Positions 5,601 through 33,786 of a stretch of 33,786 nt of DNA are shown here, piece after piece; the stretch's first letter is position 1; the number at the start of each line of letters is the position of its first letter. This DNA is from Candidatus Halobeggiatoa sp. HSG11 (GTDB lineage: Bacteria; Pseudomonadota; Gammaproteobacteria; Beggiatoales; Beggiatoaceae), in contig JAUCGL010000037.1 in the NCBI GenBank assembly GCA_030378105.1, positions 1-33,786 on the forward strand. The letters run 5' to 3'. The position numbers and the translations under genes were made by a program. The notes under the pieces were generated by a model that made no database searches, was not told the DNA's origin, and saw only the letters and a list, made by a program, of their open reading frames with translations.

Positions 5601-8600
5601 ACATAACTTGCACTGGTACATTACCACCTCAAAACGGGGAAGTAACTGTTCCTTTACCATCAGAATTAACCTTGACTGTTAAATTTGCTGGTGATGGCAA
5701 CGGTAAATTCAATGGCATGGATTGCAAGACCGAACCATGTTCACAACTGCATGAAACCGCTAGTACCGTTCAACTTGCAGTTACACCAGATTCCGATTCT
5801 ATATTTGAACGTTGGAGTGGCAATAGCGATTGTAGTGATGCAGAAGTATTTATGGTTAAAAATATCACCTGTACAGCTTATTTTAAACTGAAAAATCCAC
5901 CAGTTGTGGAAACTCCAGTTGTGGAAACCCCTGTTATCAAACCAACTTGCACTCAGGCAACTGAAATTTTATATGTGAATCATGCAGCAAGTGGTTATGA
6001 CAGTGGGCTAAATTGGCAAGATGCTTTCACCGACCTGCAAGATGCGTTAGATGCTGCTAGAAATAACTGTCCCAATATTAAACAAATTTGGATAGCTAAA
6101 GGAACCTATTATCCAACTGCTGACAATGACCGTACCGTTAGTTTTGACTTAGTGAATGGCATAAAAATCTATGGTGGTTTTACTGGTCATGAATCTCAAT
6201 TGGAAGACCAAAATTGTAGTGCAAATCTCACTATTTTAAGTGGTAATATTGGAATTAAAAATGATAATTCTGATAATAGCCAACATGTTATAACAGCTAC
6301 TGGAGTTGGAAGAAATACCTTGCTTAATTGCTTAACTATAATTGATGGTTATGCAGATGAATGTGGTGGCGGTATGTTTAACGACCACGCCAGTCCAACT
6401 TTGAAATATATGTCTTTCAGTAGTAATCACGCTGAATATGGTGCTGGTTTATGTAATATAAATAACAGTAAGCCATTAATATGCCAAGTATTTATTCAAA
6501 CAAATACTGCTATACATGGTGCTGGGATAGCTAATTTTGAATCAGCTCCAGTATTAAAACAAGCCAATATAACTGATAACAATGCCGCTAAATCAGGTGG
6601 TGGTATGTTTAACAGTGCCAGTAATCCACTTATAAGTCACAGTATCATAAGTAAAAATAATGCTGAACAAGGTGCTGGAATGGTGAATTTTGATAGCAGT
6701 CCATTGATTGGCCATTTAGTCCTTACTTCTAACAGTTCCGAAGCAATGCTGAACGAAAATAGTAGTCCGTCAATCACACAATCAACTGTTGCGTTCAATC
6801 AAAGTGGAATTGTGAATTATTCCAGTTCAGCAAAAATAAATAACAGTATTTTATGGGATACAACTCCAATTATTAACGAAAAAAACAGCATGGCTATTGT
6901 TAATTATTCCATAGTAAGAAATGGTTGGGATGGAAATTGGAATAGAGCTTCTGACCCGTTATTTACTAAAAATATCAATAATTTGTTACCAACAATGGCA
7001 GATAATGTACATTTACAACCTCAATCTCCAGCTATTGATGCAGGTAATAACGATTTAGTTCCACAATATCTGGCCAATTCAGAATGTGATGTTTTTGTTA
7101 ATAATACAGCCGTTGATTTAGACTTTGATGGCAAAAATCGTGTGTCAGATGGCAATGCTGATGGTGTGCAAACTGTTGATATGGGAGTTCATGAAGCTAG
7201 TTTTTCATTTACTCATTCACTCACAGTTGAATTGACTGGTGAAGGTTCTGGTTCAGTTGTATCAAATAATCCAGGAATTAACTGTGGCAATGATTGCTAT
7301 CATAATTATTCAAGTGGGATTGATGTGTTATTAACTGCCAAAGCTGACCAAAATTCCGTGTTTAATGGTTGGAGTGGAGATTGCGGTAACAACGGTTATG
7401 TCAAAATGACTGGTTTTAAAAGATGCCAAGCTCAATTCGATTTGCTTCTTAACACTGAAGATAGCTATCTGCCAGAATCTGAAGATAGAACTTGTTCAAC
7501 TGGCAATGTGATTAACACAACTTGTAACTTTGGTTGGGATGATGCTGAAGATATTCTGATCGAAGAAAAAGGCAATGTCTCCAACATGATCATCAAATCT
7601 GACATTAAAAACAATGGTCGAATAGCTAATTCTGAAATAACCAAAGGCAAGAAAGTAACTGGTGGTATTTTAAGTGGTTACATAGATAATAAAGGTATTT
7701 TAGCTGACTTTGAATTTTTGGGTGCTGAAATCCGAGGTGGTAAGTTAGTTGGTAATATTGTGAACAATAGTGATGATACTGTGGATGGAATTATAATAGA
7801 TGTGTCATTAGCTCCTAATACTCGTATAACTGGCGGTCGATTGGGTGGTAGAATCATCGGTAATTCTATTGTACCTGCAATTTTAGAAGATTTAGTTATA
7901 ACTGACGGTACTTATTTAACCAATGTCATTATCGGTAACAACGTAACTTCAGTTGGTGAGGTTGAATATGGGCCCGGTATCCAGTTTTACTTTGGTACAA
8001 AATCAGTGCCGTTTGAAAAGACTATAGTTAATGAGGGGACAATTAAAGACCTTACTTTCAGAGGTAAAAATTTGTCTGGTGGTACTTTAGACGGTGACAT
8101 AAATATCACGATGGGTGGAACCGTTATCAATGTTGAATTGACTGCTGGAACTAAAATCAATGGCGGTAACGTTAAAGGCAAAGTCATAGGTGATGCCAAA
8201 AAACCAGCCATATTAACTAACCTCAGTGTTGTCGCTGGCAGCTATTTGGAAAATGTTATTATTTCTGAAGGAGTTTATTTACCAGATGATGTTGAATTGG
8301 GGCCTAATGTTACTAAAATTGAAGAACCTGTTGAAGAAGTTGAAGATTTGCCGACAGCTTTTTTGATTGATGAATATTTGGGAGTGTATGACCTGTTTGA
8401 TGCTAGTTTTATTACCAACATAAAAACTGGTAAAGTAACTCACCCTAACCACGCTATGTTGACTTTTGAGCAGGTCAAAAAATTAAAATTATCAACTAAT
8501 ATAAAAGTGTTACCTGATGATAAAGGTAAATCAGCCGATATGTTGGTGGTTGTTGAGCATAAGGATAGAAAAAATCCGGATCGTAATTCTATTAAAATGC

Positions 8601-9709
8601 TTGAGCCACCTAAGTGGAATTCTTGGGATAATGATATTTTTAGTTTAAAACCCATGCAGCATTATAAAAAGTTACCATTAAGTTTTAAATTGCCGGTTTA
8701 TACTGGTGATTTGAATGATATTGCTGAAAAAATATCTTTTATGTCTAATGGGCATAAGCTATTTTTGAGTGATACCTCTGGGGAATATAATTTTTATATC
8801 GGTTATCGTTTGCCAGACCAGTCTATTGTTTATAATGGTCCAGAACCATTGCATTTCTTTGTTGAAACTGCCCCAGAGTCTTGTATTTTGTATGCTTTAC
8901 ATGATGATAAGCTTAATGATTCTCAAGTTGTTGTGATTGATTTAAGTGCTGGTTTAAAAGGCAGTATGAAACCATTAGGTCCGATGCGGCCGGGGCGTGA
9001 TATGGAAGGTTTGGCTTTGCATCCTGATGATCCTGATTTGCTGTTTGCGAGTGCTGGTAATCATGCTGAGGTGGATGGTGAGGAGTTGGATGGTTATTTG
9101 TATACTATTCACCGTGAAACAGGAGATATGAAGGTTATTGGGCCAACTGGGTTTGAGAAGACGGCTGGATTGGCTTTTAATCCGGTTGATAGGACTTTGT
9201 GGGCTTGGGGTCGTAATGAGGGTGGTTCGGATAAATGGCGAGGTGATGGTAGTAATTGGGAAAGAGATAATGATATTGTTACTGATAAATGGAGTGGTCT
9301 TATCAAAATTGATATTGAGACTGGTAAAGGTACTCCTGTTAAGCAATTAGATTATAATCTTCATGATATGGGTGGTTTAGCTTGGAGTTTTGAGGGTGAT
9401 AAGCTTTATGCTTCTGGTGATGACCATTTGTGGGTTTATGATTTGGCAACTCAATCTTTTGAAGTTGCTTGTGATTTTGTTGATCATGGTCGTATTGAGG
9501 GGCTTGATACTCAGCCAAATGGTTTCTTGTTAGTTGGAGTTGATCGTAAGGGTAAAAATGGTCGGGAGACTCGTATTTTGGCTTATGATCCAGTGGAATG
9601 CAAGATAATTCATAAGCGGGTTTATAAGGGTTTGCAGTATGATGATATTGAGTCTATTGTGTGGCCGGCTACTGAATGTAATGATACTTCTTGGTTGTCG
9701 GATCATTGA
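2624..9709 (+). CDS. Giant exported multidomain protein (P-domain, Ig-like repeats, beta-helix, beta-propeller)
   Basis: The ATG at 2624 is preceded by GTGAGG and gives a clean signal peptide ending near VYAETEI; a TTG at 2603 is the alternative. Order over 2361 residues, approximate: a proprotein-convertase P-like domain (22-180); about seven ASPM/SPD-2/Hydin-like Ig repeats with recurring CTP or CSP and TNDP motifs (185-1000); an InlB-type repeat with FERWSG (1014-1089); a PVVETP linker; a right-handed beta-helix with GGGMFN and GAGLCN turns (1114-1520); a second InlB-type repeat with FNGWSGDC (1529-1606); a duplicated module rich in ITGGRLGG-like turns (1620-1900); an unidentified segment; and a beta-propeller-like domain with AGLAFNPVDRTLWAWG (2086-2356). 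No membrane anchor or sorting signal was seen. Probably a secreted or surface adhesive or structural protein; the exact role is unknown. Base composition changes toward T/G-rich codons in roughly the last 1.3 kb. Confidence 0.85.
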   Translation: MSIPIKTLITILFLLTINVYAETEICSSTTPTIPNNNATGITDTINISDAGNITDLKITLDISHDKVSELNVNLTHDATNINLLDYPGAIDAADTADEGCEGKNIPNLTIADNGTKSLENDCTLKEPAYSSGVVYTPNDFLASFDGKDITGNWVLKVSDNNTYNNADGTLNSWCIKYNRESSVTLNPEPPFAALTFGGVDIGKSGDTPATLTGTGDKIIIYSADFTGANTSEFTLTSHNINTAFEMEIVPVPPGNATVTFTIECTPTQLGTRTANFNLYTNIPAYPTLTYPLTCEAKGGAYSDNGTSPISFGLVEVTKPTGTTSSEHTFDITAGAGADLTLSYTKTGSHRNDFSITQFPSSPLTVGNTGTVGVTCTPKAVGNRTGKLKITTNDPANDRITYNLKCTGEGVTFNSTPVDEGDELEFGSAKPGEGGTSRNLNIGNSGNLSLSIDDIQITGTDAGLFSFSPAATALTLGIGINYDIDIACNPATLGDFSATLEISHNDTSGLLPNPLTYDLACSGTDQDAEPLYYSIPAPSNTINVGSAVAANSAISGSTTTATSNLNVKERGNADLIINSYTITGTNASEFTINNSTTFPVTIPDTPDDTGIDITIECSPPVEGLRTAILTFATNDPTNFPAPSYNLECTGLVAGYDSTPEHPGETINVGSQPIYDTITYNLTVEEIDNAKLLVDLATPAITGTYASNFSLNTSFPFTVNSGGNTTVKIQCTPSFIGLHDDTALHFVTNDPDQPTIDYDLECTGMEAIGPGYSSTPKSPGETVDFGTTPMLVKANEQTLTIKEVGTTKLNLDSISIGGTNSSDFNIESITQSGNSKPFPSFIGDGDADFEIVISCTPSAEGTRTATLDLTTNDTNNSSPSYDLTCLSGPPLIPVYTSNPAINSTIDFGSVLESSTVLTKTITITEDGNTDLEITNATLTGDSEITLISPTSPITIADGGSSETITLQCSPTSAETYTAQLEIATNDPNNLTVTHNITCTGTLPPQNGEVTVPLPSELTLTVKFAGDGNGKFNGMDCKTEPCSQLHETASTVQLAVTPDSDSIFERWSGNSDCSDAEVFMVKNITCTAYFKLKNPPVVETPVVETPVIKPTCTQATEILYVNHAASGYDSGLNWQDAFTDLQDALDAARNNCPNIKQIWIAKGTYYPTADNDRTVSFDLVNGIKIYGGFTGHESQLEDQNCSANLTILSGNIGIKNDNSDNSQHVITATGVGRNTLLNCLTIIDGYADECGGGMFNDHASPTLKYMSFSSNHAEYGAGLCNINNSKPLICQVFIQTNTAIHGAGIANFESAPVLKQANITDNNAAKSGGGMFNSASNPLISHSIISKNNAEQGAGMVNFDSSPLIGHLVLTSNSSEAMLNENSSPSITQSTVAFNQSGIVNYSSSAKINNSILWDTTPIINEKNSMAIVNYSIVRNGWDGNWNRASDPLFTKNINNLLPTMADNVHLQPQSPAIDAGNNDLVPQYLANSECDVFVNNTAVDLDFDGKNRVSDGNADGVQTVDMGVHEASFSFTHSLTVELTGEGSGSVVSNNPGINCGNDCYHNYSSGIDVLLTAKADQNSVFNGWSGDCGNNGYVKMTGFKRCQAQFDLLLNTEDSYLPESEDRTCSTGNVINTTCNFGWDDAEDILIEEKGNVSNMIIKSDIKNNGRIANSEITKGKKVTGGILSGYIDNKGILADFEFLGAEIRGGKLVGNIVNNSDDTVDGIIIDVSLAPNTRITGGRLGGRIIGNSIVPAILEDLVITDGTYLTNVIIGNNVTSVGEVEYGPGIQFYFGTKSVPFEKTIVNEGTIKDLTFRGKNLSGGTLDGDINITMGGTVINVELTAGTKINGGNVKGKVIGDAKKPAILTNLSVVAGSYLENVIISEGVYLPDDVELGPNVTKIEEPVEEVEDLPTAFLIDEYLGVYDLFDASFITNIKTGKVTHPNHAMLTFEQVKKLKLSTNIKVLPDDKGKSADMLVVVEHKDRKNPDRNSIKMLEPPKWNSWDNDIFSLKPMQHYKKLPLSFKLPVYTGDLNDIAEKISFMSNGHKLFLSDTSGEYNFYIGYRLPDQSIVYNGPEPLHFFVETAPESCILYALHDDKLNDSQVVVIDLSAGLKGSMKPLGPMRPGRDMEGLALHPDDPDLLFASAGNHAEVDGEELDGYLYTIHRETGDMKVIGPTGFEKTAGLAFNPVDRTLWAWGRNEGGSDKWRGDGSNWERDNDIVTDKWSGLIKIDIETGKGTPVKQLDYNLHDMGGLAWSFEGDKLYASGDDHLWVYDLATQSFEVACDFVDHGRIEGLDTQPNGFLLVGVDRKGKNGRETRILAYDPVECKIIHKRVYKGLQYDDIESIVWPATECNDTSWLSDH

Positions 9710-10004: not shown

Positions 10005-11276
10005 ATGAAAACGTTTATACACATTGCCCTTGCATTAATTATTGCAATGGGTATTTCGGGAACTGCTTTTCCGTCTGTTGGTGATAATGACATTGACTTG
10101 CAGCAAATGCGAGTAATTGCATTAGAAAACCAGATAAACATGGAGCGGGAAATAACATCAACACGTAGGGGGCAACTTAGAGCTGATATCAGTACACCAC
10201 TATCAACAACTCCCGGTAACCCAAATTACACTATAGATGTACCTGGGTCCTACACTAGCGGTAACTTTAGTATGACCGTTTGGCGCGAACTGCAAGCAGA
10301 TGGTAATTATTTGTTATTATTAAGGGTAATTCCCACAGAAGATAAGCCAGTGATGGTATGTGGCTCCAGTTTTACTGTTTTCACTGCGGATGAAAATGGG
10401 ATTACTCCATATTCCAATATTAGTCTCAAGGATGATAACGTAATTTCATCTGGTGGTAGTTATTGCTTTGGTGAAGATATAGATGGAGATTCTTTAGGAG
10501 ATGGCACAACTGTTCCGCTTACTTTAATCTTTGGGCAGTGGAGCCATAAAAAACAGTTTGATAATACCAAATCTCTTCTTATTCTTTCTGATGATTTTGA
10601 TGATGGAACATCATTAGAGATTCCGGATATAAATGGTGGCCGTTTTGGTGCTATGCTTGGCGGAGCTGGTGATAGTTGTCCTAATGTTAATACTTCATCT
10701 TCTGGAAATACGCCTGTTAGTAGCGATTGTATGGCAAACCATTTTACTTCTGGTCAATTGCATGTACCTTGTGTGTCTGTGCCAGATACGTCAACTGTTT
10801 ATGATATTAAGTTGAATCAACAAACTGGGTCTTTTACTTTTGATTTAGATATGGACAGTGTTAAGCCTAAAGATATGGGCAGTGTTAAGCCTAAATCAGA
10901 AACACCACCTTTAAACGGGGAAGTTTCTGGCACCGCCTCGTCGACATGCCATATATGGTCGATTCCGCCTCCCATTGGGGTTGAGGAGGTTTCGATTATT
11001 ATCGGCACTTTGACCCCGCTAACAACAGCATGTGATTTATCCGGCACGTTATATAAGGAGAGCGGCTCTGTTATAGGAACTGCCAACATTCCTGCTATTC
11101 CTCCCAGCGGGGTGACCAGATTATCACACCCCAGTTTTGAAGAGTTGTTTGGCGCGTGGTCGTCCGGACGTGCACATTTAACGCTGGAAAGCACATGTGA
11201 TCTTGACGGAATAATGAGGGTGAGACCGCATCAAGGCGGCGGGCTTTCGGTAATACCTCTAGACTGCGGTAACTAA
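10005..11276 (+). CDS. Exported protein of unknown function with GC-rich C-terminal segment
   Basis: AGGAG at 9992-9996 precedes the ATG. Residues 1-24 form a signal peptide (hydrophobic ALALIIAMGISGTAF), followed by a charged helical stretch and a beta-rich domain (about 60-280) with paired Cys. A 24-bp unit is repeated in tandem at 10848-10895 and encodes DMDSVKPK / DMGSVKPK. From the PPLNGEV linker (near residue 303, about 10904) to the end the DNA becomes clearly more GC-rich (roughly 53 percent by hand count against about 40 percent before), and the encoded segment has four Cys (CHIW, ACDL, TCDL, LDCGN). The TAA stop is the first base triplet of a repeated palindrome. I do not recognise the family. 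The composition break suggests that the last 120 residues were acquired separately, in frame. Confidence 0.8.
   Translation: MKTFIHIALALIIAMGISGTAFPSVGDNDIDLQQMRVIALENQINMEREITSTRRGQLRADISTPLSTTPGNPNYTIDVPGSYTSGNFSMTVWRELQADGNYLLLLRVIPTEDKPVMVCGSSFTVFTADENGITPYSNISLKDDNVISSGGSYCFGEDIDGDSLGDGTTVPLTLIFGQWSHKKQFDNTKSLLILSDDFDDGTSLEIPDINGGRFGAMLGGAGDSCPNVNTSSSGNTPVSSDCMANHFTSGQLHVPCVSVPDTSTVYDIKLNQQTGSFTFDLDMDSVKPKDMGSVKPKSETPPLNGEVSGTASSTCHIWSIPPPIGVEEVSIIIGTLTPLTTACDLSGTLYKESGSVIGTANIPAIPPSGVTRLSHPSFEELFGAWSSGRAHLTLESTCDLDGIMRVRPHQGGGLSVIPLDCGN
10848..10895 (+). repeat. Tandem 24-bp duplication inside the exported-protein gene
   Basis: Two copies of a 24-bp unit differ at a single base (GATATGGAC versus GATATGGGC). 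The duplication is in frame and lies just upstream of the composition break at about 10904. Replication slippage is the simplest origin. Confidence 0.85.
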
Positions 11277-11350
11277 CTCGTAAAGTGTATAAGCGGAGCG
11301 TCATACACCAAATCCGTCCATACGGTGCATGACACTATCGTTTATACGAG
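11274..11350. repeat. Family A palindrome, copy 1 (starts at a stop codon)
   Basis: Starts TAACTCGTA and ends TATACGAG. The two arms (GTGTATAAGCG..GTCATACACC and GGTGCATGACACTATCG) form an imperfect palindrome. The TAA is the stop of the exported-protein gene. Related copies start at 11684, 30041 and 33459, and a half copy lies at 11779. Confidence 0.75.
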
Positions 11351-29930: not shown

Positions 29931-30040
29931 GGGGTTTGGTATGGTGGGTGATTTGCTTACCATATCATTGTATTTTTAGTTTGGTATAATTTTTGATATG
30001 GTTATACTTGACTTATTTATCGGTTAATATCTACAAATAA

Positions 30041-30180
30041 TAACTCGTAAGCCGTATAAAATTGTGATTTAGTAGGGTGCATAAGCTATAGCGTCATGCA
30101 CCGAACATGGAATTTAATTTTGATATTTTTTAATGGATGAATTTGGTGTATGACGCTTTGCTTATACACCCTACGAGCTA
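30041..30180. repeat. Family A element, long copy with both arms
   Basis: TAACTCGTAAG begins it. The arms TAGGGTGCATAAGC..GTCATGCACC (30072-30103) and GGTGTATGACGC..TTATACACCCTA (30144-30173) are inverted, and CTACGAGCTA closes it. The spacer 29931-30237 otherwise holds no gene. Confidence 0.7.
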
Positions 30181-30237
30181 CGATCTATTAATGATGAGTA
30201 ACGCAGAGCGTCACGGTAGGCATTCCCACGCAGAGCA

Positions 30238-31769
30238 CTCATCGTTATACACAAGTATTTAAGTATTTAATTTGAATAATAAAAATATTATTTATGTATA
30301 AATTGATATATTCCCAAAAAATATGTATTAAGCATTTTTCATAGCATATAAAATGAGTACAAAATCTCGCATTCGCTGTAGTCCGATCCAAATAGATTTT
30401 GGACCAGGTGGCCCATCATTTTTTCGACCAAGGTATCCTCCCAAACGAGCAATCATTGGTATGATTTCACCTATTGATGGTGATGTTGTTGGTAATGGAG
30501 TTTGATTCAAAACTAAATGAATTGCTTGCCATTCTTCGACAGCAAAAAGTAATTCACAATCAAGTTCTGGATAAGTTCTTCCAAACATAGTAATAAATAA
30601 AATACGCCAAGTAATTATCATATAAAATGCTAAACAAGGTTCAAGTCTGTCAGAAGTTTCTAATTGCAGTTTTTCAACTTGGCAGCCACTTTTTAAAGTT
30701 CTGAAAAAGATTTCAATTTCCCAGCGACAAGTGTACCATTTAATAATATTAACTGCTTGTTCAAAAGTATCTATTTTCATTGAAGTTAAGAGTAACCATT
30801 CAATAGGTTTTTCACCTACAGGAGGATTTTCTTCCTTAGCTAATACGACGTTTATTTTAACATTATCAAATTTATAGCCAGCTCTATAAGGTGCTTTGAT
30901 AATTATACTAGCAGACCTAACAGTTTGTTCAACCTTGCGGGCTTTGCGATTACCAGAAGCTGGTAAATTAAATTTTATCGTACCAAGAACTGGTTGTTTT
31001 TCAAGTTTATTCCAAATTTTCCTGGTTTCTTTATCTGACGTTTCTAAGCAACGATTTTGAGCTGCTCGAATTATCCATTGAGAACGAGTGTTTGGAGAAT
31101 ATTCTTGTGTTTCTAAGAACCATTCATAAATATCACCTTCACGATCTGCAATGTTAACAATAAGTGTTTCTGACACACTACCACTTACTTCACAGGCAAT
31201 TTGATAGCCATTTAACCAATGATGACTTTCTTTCTCATTGATTGGTTTGTTTCTACGTTCTTTTCGAGGACTTTTTTCTTCTCGTTTCCAAATATCTGCA
31301 CCAACAACACCTAAGCAAAGTCTGTCAGGTGTGATAGCAATCGTTGGATGCAAAAAAACTTCTTTTTTCTCTATTTCTTTTAAATTTCCAATTCCTTTTA
31401 AACCTTTGGTAACTGTATGAATTAAATCAGTTGTATCTTGAATTAATAAAACCACAGGATAACAGGAAATTCTTTCTATTGATGAATGAACATGGCTTTC
31501 AAGTACTTGCTCAAAGGTCACTTTATCATTATCAAAAAAACGATATGCTGCCAAGGTCTCAGCCCAACCACCACAAGCGATTGGAATACTTTGTGTTGGT
31601 TTATTGCCCAATTGTTCTAAAAGTACTTCCATACGTTTATTTAAACGCTCATCTCCAAAATTTGCTGTTTTGGTTTCATCAGATGCCCAGTGACTCATTA
31701 TCAATTCTCCTTGAACTGTTTTAAAAATGTCACTTTACCATATCATTTTGACTTATGTATAACGATGAG
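30238..31769 (-). mobile_element. IS4-family (Tn5/IS50-like) insertion sequence, complete
   Basis: The 1532-bp element is bounded by 19-bp terminal inverted repeats, CTCATCGTTATACACAAGT at 30238-30256 and its complement at 31751-31769 with one mismatch. The inner twelve bases TTATACACAAGT equal the Tn5 outer end. The 9-bp CGCAGAGCA is duplicated exactly at 30229-30237 and 31770-31778, the target length of Tn5-type elements. The transposase frame is intact, so the insertion looks recent and may still be active. Confidence 0.95.
30328..31698 (-). CDS. IS4-family transposase (Tn5 type)
   Basis: The 456 residues begin SHWASDETKTANFGDERLNKR, the usual N-terminus of this group (end-binding domain). 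DDE motifs follow: the first Asp in LLIQDTTDL, the second in NIADREGDIYEW, and the Y-R-E signature YTCRWEIEIFFRTLKSG with the catalytic Glu. The ATG at 31698 has GGAG 8 bases upstream; a TTG at 31704 is too close to it. No frameshift or stop is present. It lies inside the 30238-31769 element and is read leftward. Confidence 0.95.
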   Translation of the reverse strand: MSHWASDETKTANFGDERLNKRMEVLLEQLGNKPTQSIPIACGGWAETLAAYRFFDNDKVTFEQVLESHVHSSIERISCYPVVLLIQDTTDLIHTVTKGLKGIGNLKEIEKKEVFLHPTIAITPDRLCLGVVGADIWKREEKSPRKERRNKPINEKESHHWLNGYQIACEVSGSVSETLIVNIADREGDIYEWFLETQEYSPNTRSQWIIRAAQNRCLETSDKETRKIWNKLEKQPVLGTIKFNLPASGNRKARKVEQTVRSASIIIKAPYRAGYKFDNVKINVVLAKEENPPVGEKPIEWLLLTSMKIDTFEQAVNIIKWYTCRWEIEIFFRTLKSGCQVEKLQLETSDRLEPCLAFYMIITWRILFITMFGRTYPELDCELLFAVEEWQAIHLVLNQTPLPTTSPSIGEIIPMIARLGGYLGRKNDGPPGPKSIWIGLQRMRDFVLILYAMKNA

Positions 31770-31878
31770 CGCAGAGCATGGGAACGAGATAACGAGATAA
31801 TCTACGAGCTATTAAATCGTTGAATTTAAGAATAACCAATTGAAAACGCAAAAAAAAATCAATTAACCCATCTTAAAG

Positions 31879-31906
31879 TTGATATTTTGATTAATTTTAG
31901 TATAAA
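31879..31906 (+). promoter_or_regulatory. Probable promoter of the reverse transcriptase gene
   Basis: TTGATA (31879-31884), 16 bases, TATAAA (31901-31906). The ribosome binding site AAGGGA at 31929-31934 and the ATG at 31941 follow at normal distances. It lies 110 bp beyond the IS element, outside it. Confidence 0.5.
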
Positions 31907-31940
31907 ATAACCCTTTAATCTAAATATAAGGGAAAAAATT

Positions 31941-33461
31941 ATGTTTTCTTGGCTTTTACCTTTTAAAAAACCACAAGTAAATACCAGTTCGCATCTTGCA
32001 AAATTAGAATATGAACCAAATCATCTGTTATCACAAGTAGTTGCTGATGATAATCTGGAAGCAGCTTTAGTTTGGTTGCGTGAAAGTAGTTCTAAACAAG
32101 ATAATAGTGATGTTTGGAATTATAGTCGTGATTGGGAAGATAATAAAAAATCTTTACAACAACGGATACTCAGTGGGCAGTTTGAATTTCAAGTTGTGAG
32201 TGAGGTTGAAAATGCTGCTGGGGAATTTATGGAGATTCGTTGTGCGGAAGACCGGTTGTTAATTCGGGCTATTAGTCAGGTATTGACCCCAATTTTTGAT
32301 GCTAATATTGCTGCTGAATGTGTACATCTGGTTGGACGTGGTGGTACTCAGCAAGCAGTTAAAGATGTTCATGCTCAACTTTTGTCCCAACCTAAAGCTC
32401 AGGTGATGAAGTCTGATGTTAAGGGATACTATGCTAATGTTGATCATCGGATTTTGTTGGACCAGTTTGCTACTTTGTTGCCCAATGAAACTGAGTTACA
32501 ACGGTTATTGTGGATGTTTTTGCAACGGACTGTGGAGCGAGGTGGTAATTATCGGGATATAACTAAGGGTTTACCTTTAGGTGCTTCTATTTCGCCACAG
32601 TTGGGAGCTTTGTATTTAAGTCCGTTGGATGTGTTGTTTAGTACCGACGCTAAGCATTTTTATCGGCGGTATATGGATGATTGGGTTATTTTCTGTAAAA
32701 ATAGTTGGGACTTGCGGAAAACGGTCAAAAAGGTATATACTGTTTTACATGCGTTGAGAGTTGAAGTTGCTCCAGACAAAACTTATATTGGTAAAGCAAG
32801 CAAAGGTTTTGATTTTCTGGGCAAGCGAATTCTTCCCATTGGGATTCTACCTTCGGCATCAGCGTTGTCACGTTTGCAAAAGAACACGGTTCGGCTTTAT
32901 GAGCAAGGTGCGACTAGGAAACGCATTGAATTGTATTGGAAACGGTGGCTAGGATGGGTTTGTATCACAGCGGGGATAGTTTCAGTTCCAGTCTCCGCCG
33001 AGAATTGCATAACCTTCCCTACCTCCGGCGATACATGTCATTGCGAGAGTCCCGTCGGGCAAACCGCTTCGGGTATTGGTTCGTACGCCGTCCTTTCCGG
33101 GGCCGGCTCGGACGGGGCATTCCTCTGGTCTAACGTCACTAACGCCGGCTTTTGTCTTGACGAAGACGATACGACGTGTACCGAGCCTGCACCAAATTCC
33201 CTTGCTACAGGGGACGTCTTATATCTTAAAAACACCTCACCCAATGCTACCGACTACTACACTTGTTCTATTACACTAGGTACCCAGATGGTAGGATCGA
33301 CATACACGCCGAGTTCAGGTCCTAACCCGCCGCCTGTATCAGCACCAATAGGATTTTCCGCTATGTCATACATGATTTGGGTAATTTTTATTATGATGGC
33401 GTACATCGTTTTTCCGACCAGGCGGGATCGATGTAACAACGTGAAAACTTCCAAACCGTAA
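31941..33461 (+). CDS. Reverse transcriptase fused to an exported-type C-terminal segment
   Basis: Residues 1-335 are a group-II-like reverse transcriptase without a maturase domain: motif A SDVKGYYANVD (D159), GLPLGASISPQLGALYLSPLD (motif 4 region), the catalytic YMDD (244-247), and PDKTYIGKASKGFDFLG. After KRIELYWKRW the frame continues without stop through a hydrophobic stretch LGWVCITAGIVSVPVSAENC (337-356) that looks like a signal peptide, then a Cys- and Thr-rich segment with about eight Cys, a PPP-rich stalk, and a final membrane helix (about 472-492) with a basic end TRRDR, like a protein-sorting tail. From about 32990 the DNA is far more GC-rich (52-65 percent by line) than the RT part (about 40). 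A TTG at 32931 behind AGGAA could start the tail separately. The biological role is unknown. The RT is not of the DGR class (SP rather than SQ in motif 4). Confidence 0.85.
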   Translation: MFSWLLPFKKPQVNTSSHLAKLEYEPNHLLSQVVADDNLEAALVWLRESSSKQDNSDVWNYSRDWEDNKKSLQQRILSGQFEFQVVSEVENAAGEFMEIRCAEDRLLIRAISQVLTPIFDANIAAECVHLVGRGGTQQAVKDVHAQLLSQPKAQVMKSDVKGYYANVDHRILLDQFATLLPNETELQRLLWMFLQRTVERGGNYRDITKGLPLGASISPQLGALYLSPLDVLFSTDAKHFYRRYMDDWVIFCKNSWDLRKTVKKVYTVLHALRVEVAPDKTYIGKASKGFDFLGKRILPIGILPSASALSRLQKNTVRLYEQGATRKRIELYWKRWLGWVCITAGIVSVPVSAENCITFPTSGDTCHCESPVGQTASGIGSYAVLSGAGSDGAFLWSNVTNAGFCLDEDDTTCTEPAPNSLATGDVLYLKNTSPNATDYYTCSITLGTQMVGSTYTPSSGPNPPPVSAPIGFSAMSYMIWVIFIMMAYIVFPTRRDRCNNVKTSKP

Positions 33462-33548
33462 CTCGTATCTCGTAAGGTGTATAAGCGAAGCGTCATACAC
33501 CAAATCCATTCATGTGGTGCATGACATTATCGTTTATATACCTTACGA
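33459..33548. repeat. Family A palindrome after the reverse transcriptase
   Basis: TAACTCGTATCTCGTAAGGT and arms GTGTATAAGCGAAGCGTCAT..ACACC against GGTGCATGACATTATCG..TACCTTACGA. The TAA is the stop codon of the reverse transcriptase fusion. Very similar to 11274-11350. Confidence 0.75.
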
Positions 33549-33572
33549 ATTCATATAATAATTAATTGGATA

Positions 33573-33786
33573 TCAATTACTACCAAAAATCTTTTCATCT
33601 ATTTCAACCATAGTTAGGTAACGATTCATGTGATAATCAATTTTTCGTTTAAGAAAATTAATATAGTAACATTCCTATATTTTTACACCATTAAAATTAA
33701 TTATATTCTGAAAAATAAAATCTATTGTTTCGATAAGTGAATCAAATTTATAACGAAACTGCTTAATGTAACGTTTTAATGAAGCC
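33573..33786 (-). pseudogene. Broken ORF fragment at the right edge
   Basis: On the minus strand one frame reads ASLKRYIKQFRYKFDSLIET and on to NGVKI, a TAG at 33677-33675, then ECYYINFLKRKIDYHMNRYL and on to KIFGSN before a TGA at 33575-33573. The continuity of composition on both sides of the TAG suggests a gene with a premature stop, cut by the window edge. The family is not recognised. Confidence 0.4.

Follow-up and report, generated by a model that had tools for sequence, protein, structure and literature searches.

A reverse transcriptase (RT) of the UG4 class and an exported-looking, membrane-anchored tail share one reading frame at 31941-33461 of the window (the whole 33,786-nucleotide stretch of Candidatus Halobeggiatoa sp. 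HSG11 DNA that was analysed), and across relatives of this RT the gene that abuts the RT 3' end can be hypervariable. Where loci can be compared, variability sets in at the RT 3' end; the variable stretch is often bounded and is found with targets in both orientations. The evidence leans towards UG4 RTs acting in cis to diversify the surface-protein gene next to their own 3' end, with enzyme and target making up one protein in the window. We regard as evenly balanced the broader reading that UG4 is a second, template-repeat-free diversity-generating system, present in several phyla and on conjugative plasmids and in some lineages fused with its target into one polypeptide.

The fused reading frame and its paralogues

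The ORF is a single uninterrupted frame of 506 aa with an ATG start. Its parts and immediate surroundings are:

31880-31993, + strand: 5' leader with the opening 18 codons; paralogue C275 has them at 80% identity, joined straight to the RT 3' end (DNA comparison)
31941-32963, + strand: UG4 RT domain, residues 1-341, with YMDD at 32670-32681 (profiles, alignment, AlphaFold2 model)
32867-32963, + strand: RT 3' end, retained as a remnant ahead of other secreted-looking ORFs (C275, C113, C301; DNA comparison)
32931-32933, + strand: in-frame TTG with an SD-like AGGA upstream, a possible internal start (sequence)
32949-32999, + strand: signal-peptide-like hydrophobic segment, residues 337-353, with possible cleavage after VSA353 (hydropathy and reading of the sequence, no dedicated predictor)
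33000-33344, + strand: Cys-rich ectodomain, residues 354-468 (115 residues), unrelated in near relatives (sequence comparison)
33345-33458, + strand: C-terminal hydrophobic helix (about residues 469-494) and basic tail (sequence and hydropathy)
33466-33549, no strand assigned: dispersed palindromic REP-like repeat directly after the stop codon (genome comparison)

The window RT matched Pfam RVT_1 (E 9.4e-21) and the PADLOC profile RT_UG4 (E 9.7e-84, residues 36-340 on profile positions 3-301 of 307); RT_UG4 was its best PADLOC profile and covered the whole domain, which places it in UG4. The YMDD motif occupies residues 244-247, and MDD is invariant in 28 aligned sequences. When the RT part was modelled alone (AlphaFold2, residues 1-342, from 28 sequences), the prediction was confident up to the last helix (326-341), with a mean pLDDT of 91.6; a model of the full-length 506-aa protein had a mean pLDDT of 45 and was discarded. 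Because the profile match is nearly end to end and the model is confident up to helix 326-341, with the tail directly after it, we take the RT to be complete and the tail to be an addition. The nearest solved folds were GsI-IIC (6ar1), a diversity-generating retroelement (DGR) RT (8ub7) and G2L4 (9d4s), GsI-IIC being nearest in both sequence and fold. Directly upstream of the RT gene is an ORF (30328-31704, - strand) that is presumably transposase-like.

Hydrophobic windows begin at residues 336-340 and 469-480 of the protein, eight cysteines follow residue 339 versus three before it, and the C-terminus is TRRDR. The original prediction of an RT and an exported-looking, anchored tail in one frame is therefore borne out by the ORF, the UG4 profile, the hydropathy and the Cys count. 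The tail had no Pfam or NCBIfam match at E 1 or better, and neither collection placed a fimbrial domain in it. Its GC3 is 0.506, as against 0.310 for the RT and 0.22-0.33 for three other genes of the window. Internal initiation at the TTG (32931) is possible from the sequence, although it is not needed to account for the long ORF, since paralogue C275 has the 5' leader and first codons ahead of a secreted-looking ORF with no RT core. The REP-like repeat occurs again at 11274-11346, both copies lying directly after the stops of secreted-looking ORFs, and about 20 matches to it were listed in the genome. At 33657-33786 there is an IS-like sequence of ~126 bp, within which the contig ends; some 20 genome matches to it were listed, often near contig ends.

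The fusion is recurrent, and homology is broken sharply at the RT end. A protein search of the whole own genome returned five places. In C304 another RT and a different secreted-looking anchored tail form one 557-aa frame, and in C322 an RT 3' piece lies within a 2569-aa open frame with secreted-looking repeats. In C275 the element's 5' leader and first codons run straight into the RT 3' end, followed by a signal-like segment. C113 and C301 (the latter found by DNA) have one layout in common: leader, run of nine Gs, RT 3' end, signal-like segment, divergent ectodomain, and an anchor and 3' flank that are nearly identical. By 50-bp windows, identity is 82-88% in the RT remnant, 28-59% in the ectodomain and 82-98% around the anchor. 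As sequenced, the leader frame of both stops at a TAA after the nine-G tract (C113, L053 5177; C301, L096 6448); a different number of Gs would possibly open it, as in phase-variable genes.

Among 42 genomes of the family, the UG4 profile matched at E 0.001 or better in 34, a count that includes other RT classes, and 15 places in 8 of the 42 reached 1e-50. Fused RT-tail ORFs occur twice in G010, of the same genus, and twice in G028, of the same family. The amino-acid identities of RT and tail were 86 and 31% (window and C409), 88 and 26% (window and C31), 88 and 29% (C409 and C31) and 92 and 58% (the G028 pair). At the DNA level, the window and C31 are 93-98% identical at ORF bases 881-1000 and 32-54% from base 1001 onward. 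The UG4 RTs examined in G001, G002, G003 and G020 are separate, unfused frames. In G002 the RT 3' end is also present in tandem, as three partial copies spaced 161-163 bp apart (L042 5884-6374).

An assembly or sequencing accident at the junction was considered and rejected, because the own genome (C304), G010 (two cases) and G028 (two cases) all have further ORFs joining an RT to a secreted-looking tail. The RTs of homologues do end near residue 340, as the original prediction had envisaged for the case of a one-off fusion, but the fusion itself is recurrent. Of the three origins that it had offered, replacement of the RT 3' end by foreign sequence comes closest in form, given the sharp break at the RT end, although the tail is a recurring arrangement and not one foreign insertion.

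The gene at the 3' end of UG4 reverse transcriptases

A scan of one genome per species (84,980 species) gave 143 relatives, 80 of which were kept, and a scan of viral contigs added one strong relative, L190. In 63 of these 81 loci the RT reaches its end and the flank is sufficient for the abutting gene to be judged; this gene was sought between 160 nt upstream and 400 nt downstream of the RT 3' end and was called secreted-like by a crude heuristic. Eight loci have it fused to the RT, 33 have it on the opposite strand and 16 on the same strand, and 6 have none, so that 55 of the 63 judged RTs are unfused. By this heuristic, 42 of the 63 genes at the RT end are secreted-like, compared with 140 of the 358 other genes of the same loci (p 5.6e-5); the 21 not so called include the 6 loci without any gene found. 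RT_UG4 was the best PADLOC profile in 19 of 20 other representatives tested. The exception, L189, has another best profile and is therefore not UG4; without it the count is 41 of 62. In the accessible text of PMC4244168, UG4 is described as restricted to Proteobacteria, whereas here RTs with UG4 as best profile were also found in records named Symploca, Okeania, Nostoc, Rhodopirellula, Planctomycetota and Bacteroidales, several of which are MAGs.

The arrangement recurs with targets in both orientations and of unrelated families. Ten abutting proteins were searched against NCBIfam and ten against Pfam, those on the minus strand being entered one codon short of their start. In NCBIfam, five had a PEP-CTERM, VPLPA-CTERM or IPTL-CTERM match above cut-off, three had weaker PEP-CTERM-like ends and two had neither; in Pfam, Fib_succ_major (L131) was above cut-off, PEP-CTERM (L121) and Ice_binding (L130) were below it, and seven proteins had no match. 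Five of the six Alteromonadales-type loci shown have the gene tail to tail with the RT, overlapping its 3' end by some 30-65 bases. In Thiocystis (L114), the start of an IPTL-CTERM protein lies within the RT 3' end, in a different frame. Serratia, Pantoea, Rahnella and others have pilin-like genes (so named by reading), then the RT, then a secreted-looking gene, and most of the enterobacterial plasmid records examined list a fimbrial usher and chaperone next to the RT. The abutting genes of these fimbrial operons, which are annotated as hypothetical or not at all, would from their position be adhesins; six fimbrial-type abutting proteins that were tested matched no Pfam family. In Klebsiella and Cedecea, the RT and a secreted-looking protein form one ORF of 693-719 aa, the Klebsiella tail again matching no Pfam family. 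Among E. coli genomes, 8 of 5426 had any DNA match to the E. albertii RT and none had a DNA match to the Klebsiella fused ORF.

Convergent giant ORFs of ~1,890-1,950 aa, not called secreted, lie against UG4-type RTs in L115, L133, L146 and L162. In L190, a contig of a viral collection, a 628-aa protein without a Pfam family (7078-8964, - strand) is convergent to the UG4 RT.

Hypervariability beyond the RT 3' end

Two near-identical E. albertii loci (L275 and L278) differ by 12 substitutions in ~12.9 kb, and all 12 lie in the ORF that follows the RT, 113-310 nt beyond its stop codon, a placement with a chance of 9e-16 if substitutions were uniformly spread. The RT is identical in the two, and outside the ORF there are only two single-base indels; nine codons of the ORF, which is unannotated in both records, are changed, three of them synonymously. 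Similarly, in six E. coli goat plasmids with an open RT frame and YMDD present, all three variable sites in 12.3 kb are in the gene after the RT, 126-199 nt past its stop (chance 1e-4 under uniform placement); they define four haplotypes, and one site has three alleles. Other close comparisons gave less: one of six substitutions between L279 and L280 is in the adhesin-position gene, L276 and L277 are identical over 3.6 kb, and L289 and L290, where the RT is broken, are identical. Downstream of the adhesin-position gene, L276 carries a ~165-bp copy (8512-8677) of an internal piece of the RT, 90% identical to it.

More distant pairs show the extent of the variable stretch. Between L279 and L281 (E. 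albertii), the RT is 97-99% identical, after which identity is 49, 62, 51, 59, 75 and 94% with increasing distance. In Salmonella the target is an inverse autotransporter gene of 5.5-5.7 kb, convergent to the RT; the RT is 94-100% identical where present, and the adjoining ~1 kb is mostly 37-71% identical. Across L274, L291 and L292 the rest of the autotransporter gene is 90-100% identical, the edge of the scrambled part being graded over some 200-400 bases. L291 and L292, two of the four Salmonella loci, have an RT without its 5' part; L274 and L293, both with whole RTs (94-100% identical), have a scrambled stretch of about 3.3 kb. For the Cedecea and Klebsiella fusions, amino-acid identity is 92% in the RT and 34% in the tail, and 81-90% nucleotide identity returns for about 240 nt after the tail. 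In several Alteromonadales PEP-CTERM pairs the protein ends are better kept than the middle. We also compared 88 locus pairs of the same arrangement with RTs at least 55% identical over >150 residues, 13 differently arranged pairs having been dropped; with a crude choice of target, target identity was 14-40% in 87 pairs and 56% in one.

As an RT-free control we chose three E. albertii operons, in which at most weak RT traces (tblastn E 0.001-0.014) precede the adhesin position. This control did not separate the possible readings, because the adhesin-position gene is variable there too: L296 and L298 have windows of 77 and 84% identity there and 93-100% elsewhere, and L296 and L297 have windows of 75-78%. 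The variability of the control operons may have been inherited, or it may mean that variation does not require the RT.

Origin of the variation and comparison with known systems

If the RT is the cause of the variation, as its place, the boundaries of the variable stretch and the recurrence of the arrangement suggest, the process would begin with a gene for an adhesin or other exported protein adjoining the RT 3' end, whether as a fusion, in the same orientation or tail to tail. From the RNA (or DNA) of the stretch just past its own 3' end the RT would make a low-fidelity copy, and recombination would put this error-bearing copy back in place of the original, so that some hundreds of bases would change but the RT, the anchor and the remainder of the gene would not. 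In the window protein, the RT would remain cytoplasmic, the signal-like segment would export the ectodomain and the C-terminal helix would hold it; the fusion would thus give strict cis action together with export of the ectodomain by its own internal signal segment.

Error-prone copying in cis is proposed because a template repeat was looked for without success and adenine is not the only base that changes at recent sites. The search covered four targets, in the E. albertii plasmid (42.5 kb), the window (33.8 kb) and 13 kb each of the E. coli and Salmonella plasmids. It consisted of an ungapped scan allowing any change at A or T, with blastn in addition for the E. albertii and E. coli plasmids; neither method gave a template repeat in these stretches, and no re-insertion signal was visible. 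The recent variable sites include A in 10 of 15 cases and lack it in five, and none is C/T; among those with two alleles, six are A/G and none C/T, which hints at a strand-asymmetric spectrum. The older Salmonella differences have no A bias, and their edge is roughly symmetric. A drift of scrambled DNA to 50% GC was not general over 58 loci (abs(GC-0.5) unchanged, Wilcoxon p 0.83): 13 AT-rich loci rise to 0.45-0.47 GC at +100 to +200, and 12 GC-rich loci do not fall.

The chief rival of diversification in cis is that the surface gene varies by selection and by homologous recombination anchored on the conserved RT 3' end, the RT having another role (e.g. phage defence) or being a hitchhiker. 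We find this possible but doubtful. Cassette exchange predicts a sharp break at a conserved gene border, and it fits with the RT 3'-end remnants that precede other secreted-looking ORFs, with the tandem RT 3' ends of G002, and with variable genes that lie beside broken or nearly absent RTs. However, the recent substitutions are scattered single bases, partly synonymous, and a search of 72,556 plasmids with two of the genes yielded no donor allele, each gene matching only its own group; moreover, the rule holds for targets in both orientations and of unrelated families.

A strict DGR, in which a template repeat, overlooked or located in another part of the genome, directs mutagenesis at adenines, is very improbable. 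In its favour, the targets resemble the binding proteins that DGRs vary, the closest folds include that of a DGR RT, and A is involved in most recent sites without any C/T. Against it, no such repeat was found in the stretches of plasmid and window searched, a third of the recent sites lack A, and the older Salmonella differences are not A-biased. It is also very improbable that the window protein is a membrane-tethered RT with a constitutive structural tail and no diversification. One frame does hold both the signal-like segment and the anchor, and C275 has the leader and first codons in front of a secreted-looking ORF that lacks the RT core, but most of the judged RTs are unfused and the tails of near-identical RTs are unrelated.

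Returning to diversification in cis by UG4, a link of this class with fimbrial domains, as co-occurrence or as a fimbrial domain, is described in the accessible text of PMC8934634, and a fimbrial domain nearby or fused is reported for 66%; it is a frequent companion of UG4 and not a strict criterion. The RTs described here and the UG4 RTs with fimbrial neighbours belong to the same class by PADLOC profile and have a surface-protein neighbour in common. The words 'hypervaria' and 'diversif' are absent from the accessible text of PMC8934634, and neither there nor in that of PMC4244168 are hypervariability, an orientation rule, or PEP-/IPTL-CTERM or autotransporter targets reported. In the open-access literature searched, no function is assigned to UG4 and no report of diversification by it was among the titles and abstracts listed; the proposal is a new functional reading of a known RT class. 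If true, UG4 may be a mutation machine for bacterial surface proteins, a further source of surface variation next to DGRs, phase variation and cassette recombination. An adhesin diversifier carried by conjugative plasmids would also account for plasmids in which the RTs are 97-98% identical but the genes that follow them can no longer be recognised as alike.

DGRs resemble this arrangement in that an RT is thought to vary an adjoining binding protein, and the fold of 8ub7 is close (TM 0.79 by its own length). They differ from it in that here the stretches searched lack a template repeat, changes are not confined to adenine, the RT has the UG4 profile and the target can be fused to the RT. The group II intron RT GsI-IIC and the G2L4 RT both match the window RT in fold, but the window RT scores 110.8 bits against TIGR04416 (cut-off 300), its domain ends after the helix at 341, and Rfam gave no group II intron RNA in 30000-33786. 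Nor did Rfam, from which many retron RNAs are absent, give a match to a retron msr-msd RNA in the same interval. Finally, PADLOC files UG4 under DRT and the window RT has several weak Drt matches, but the five NCBIfam Drt models listed for it are far below cut-off, and the neighbour of UG4 is usually an exported protein.
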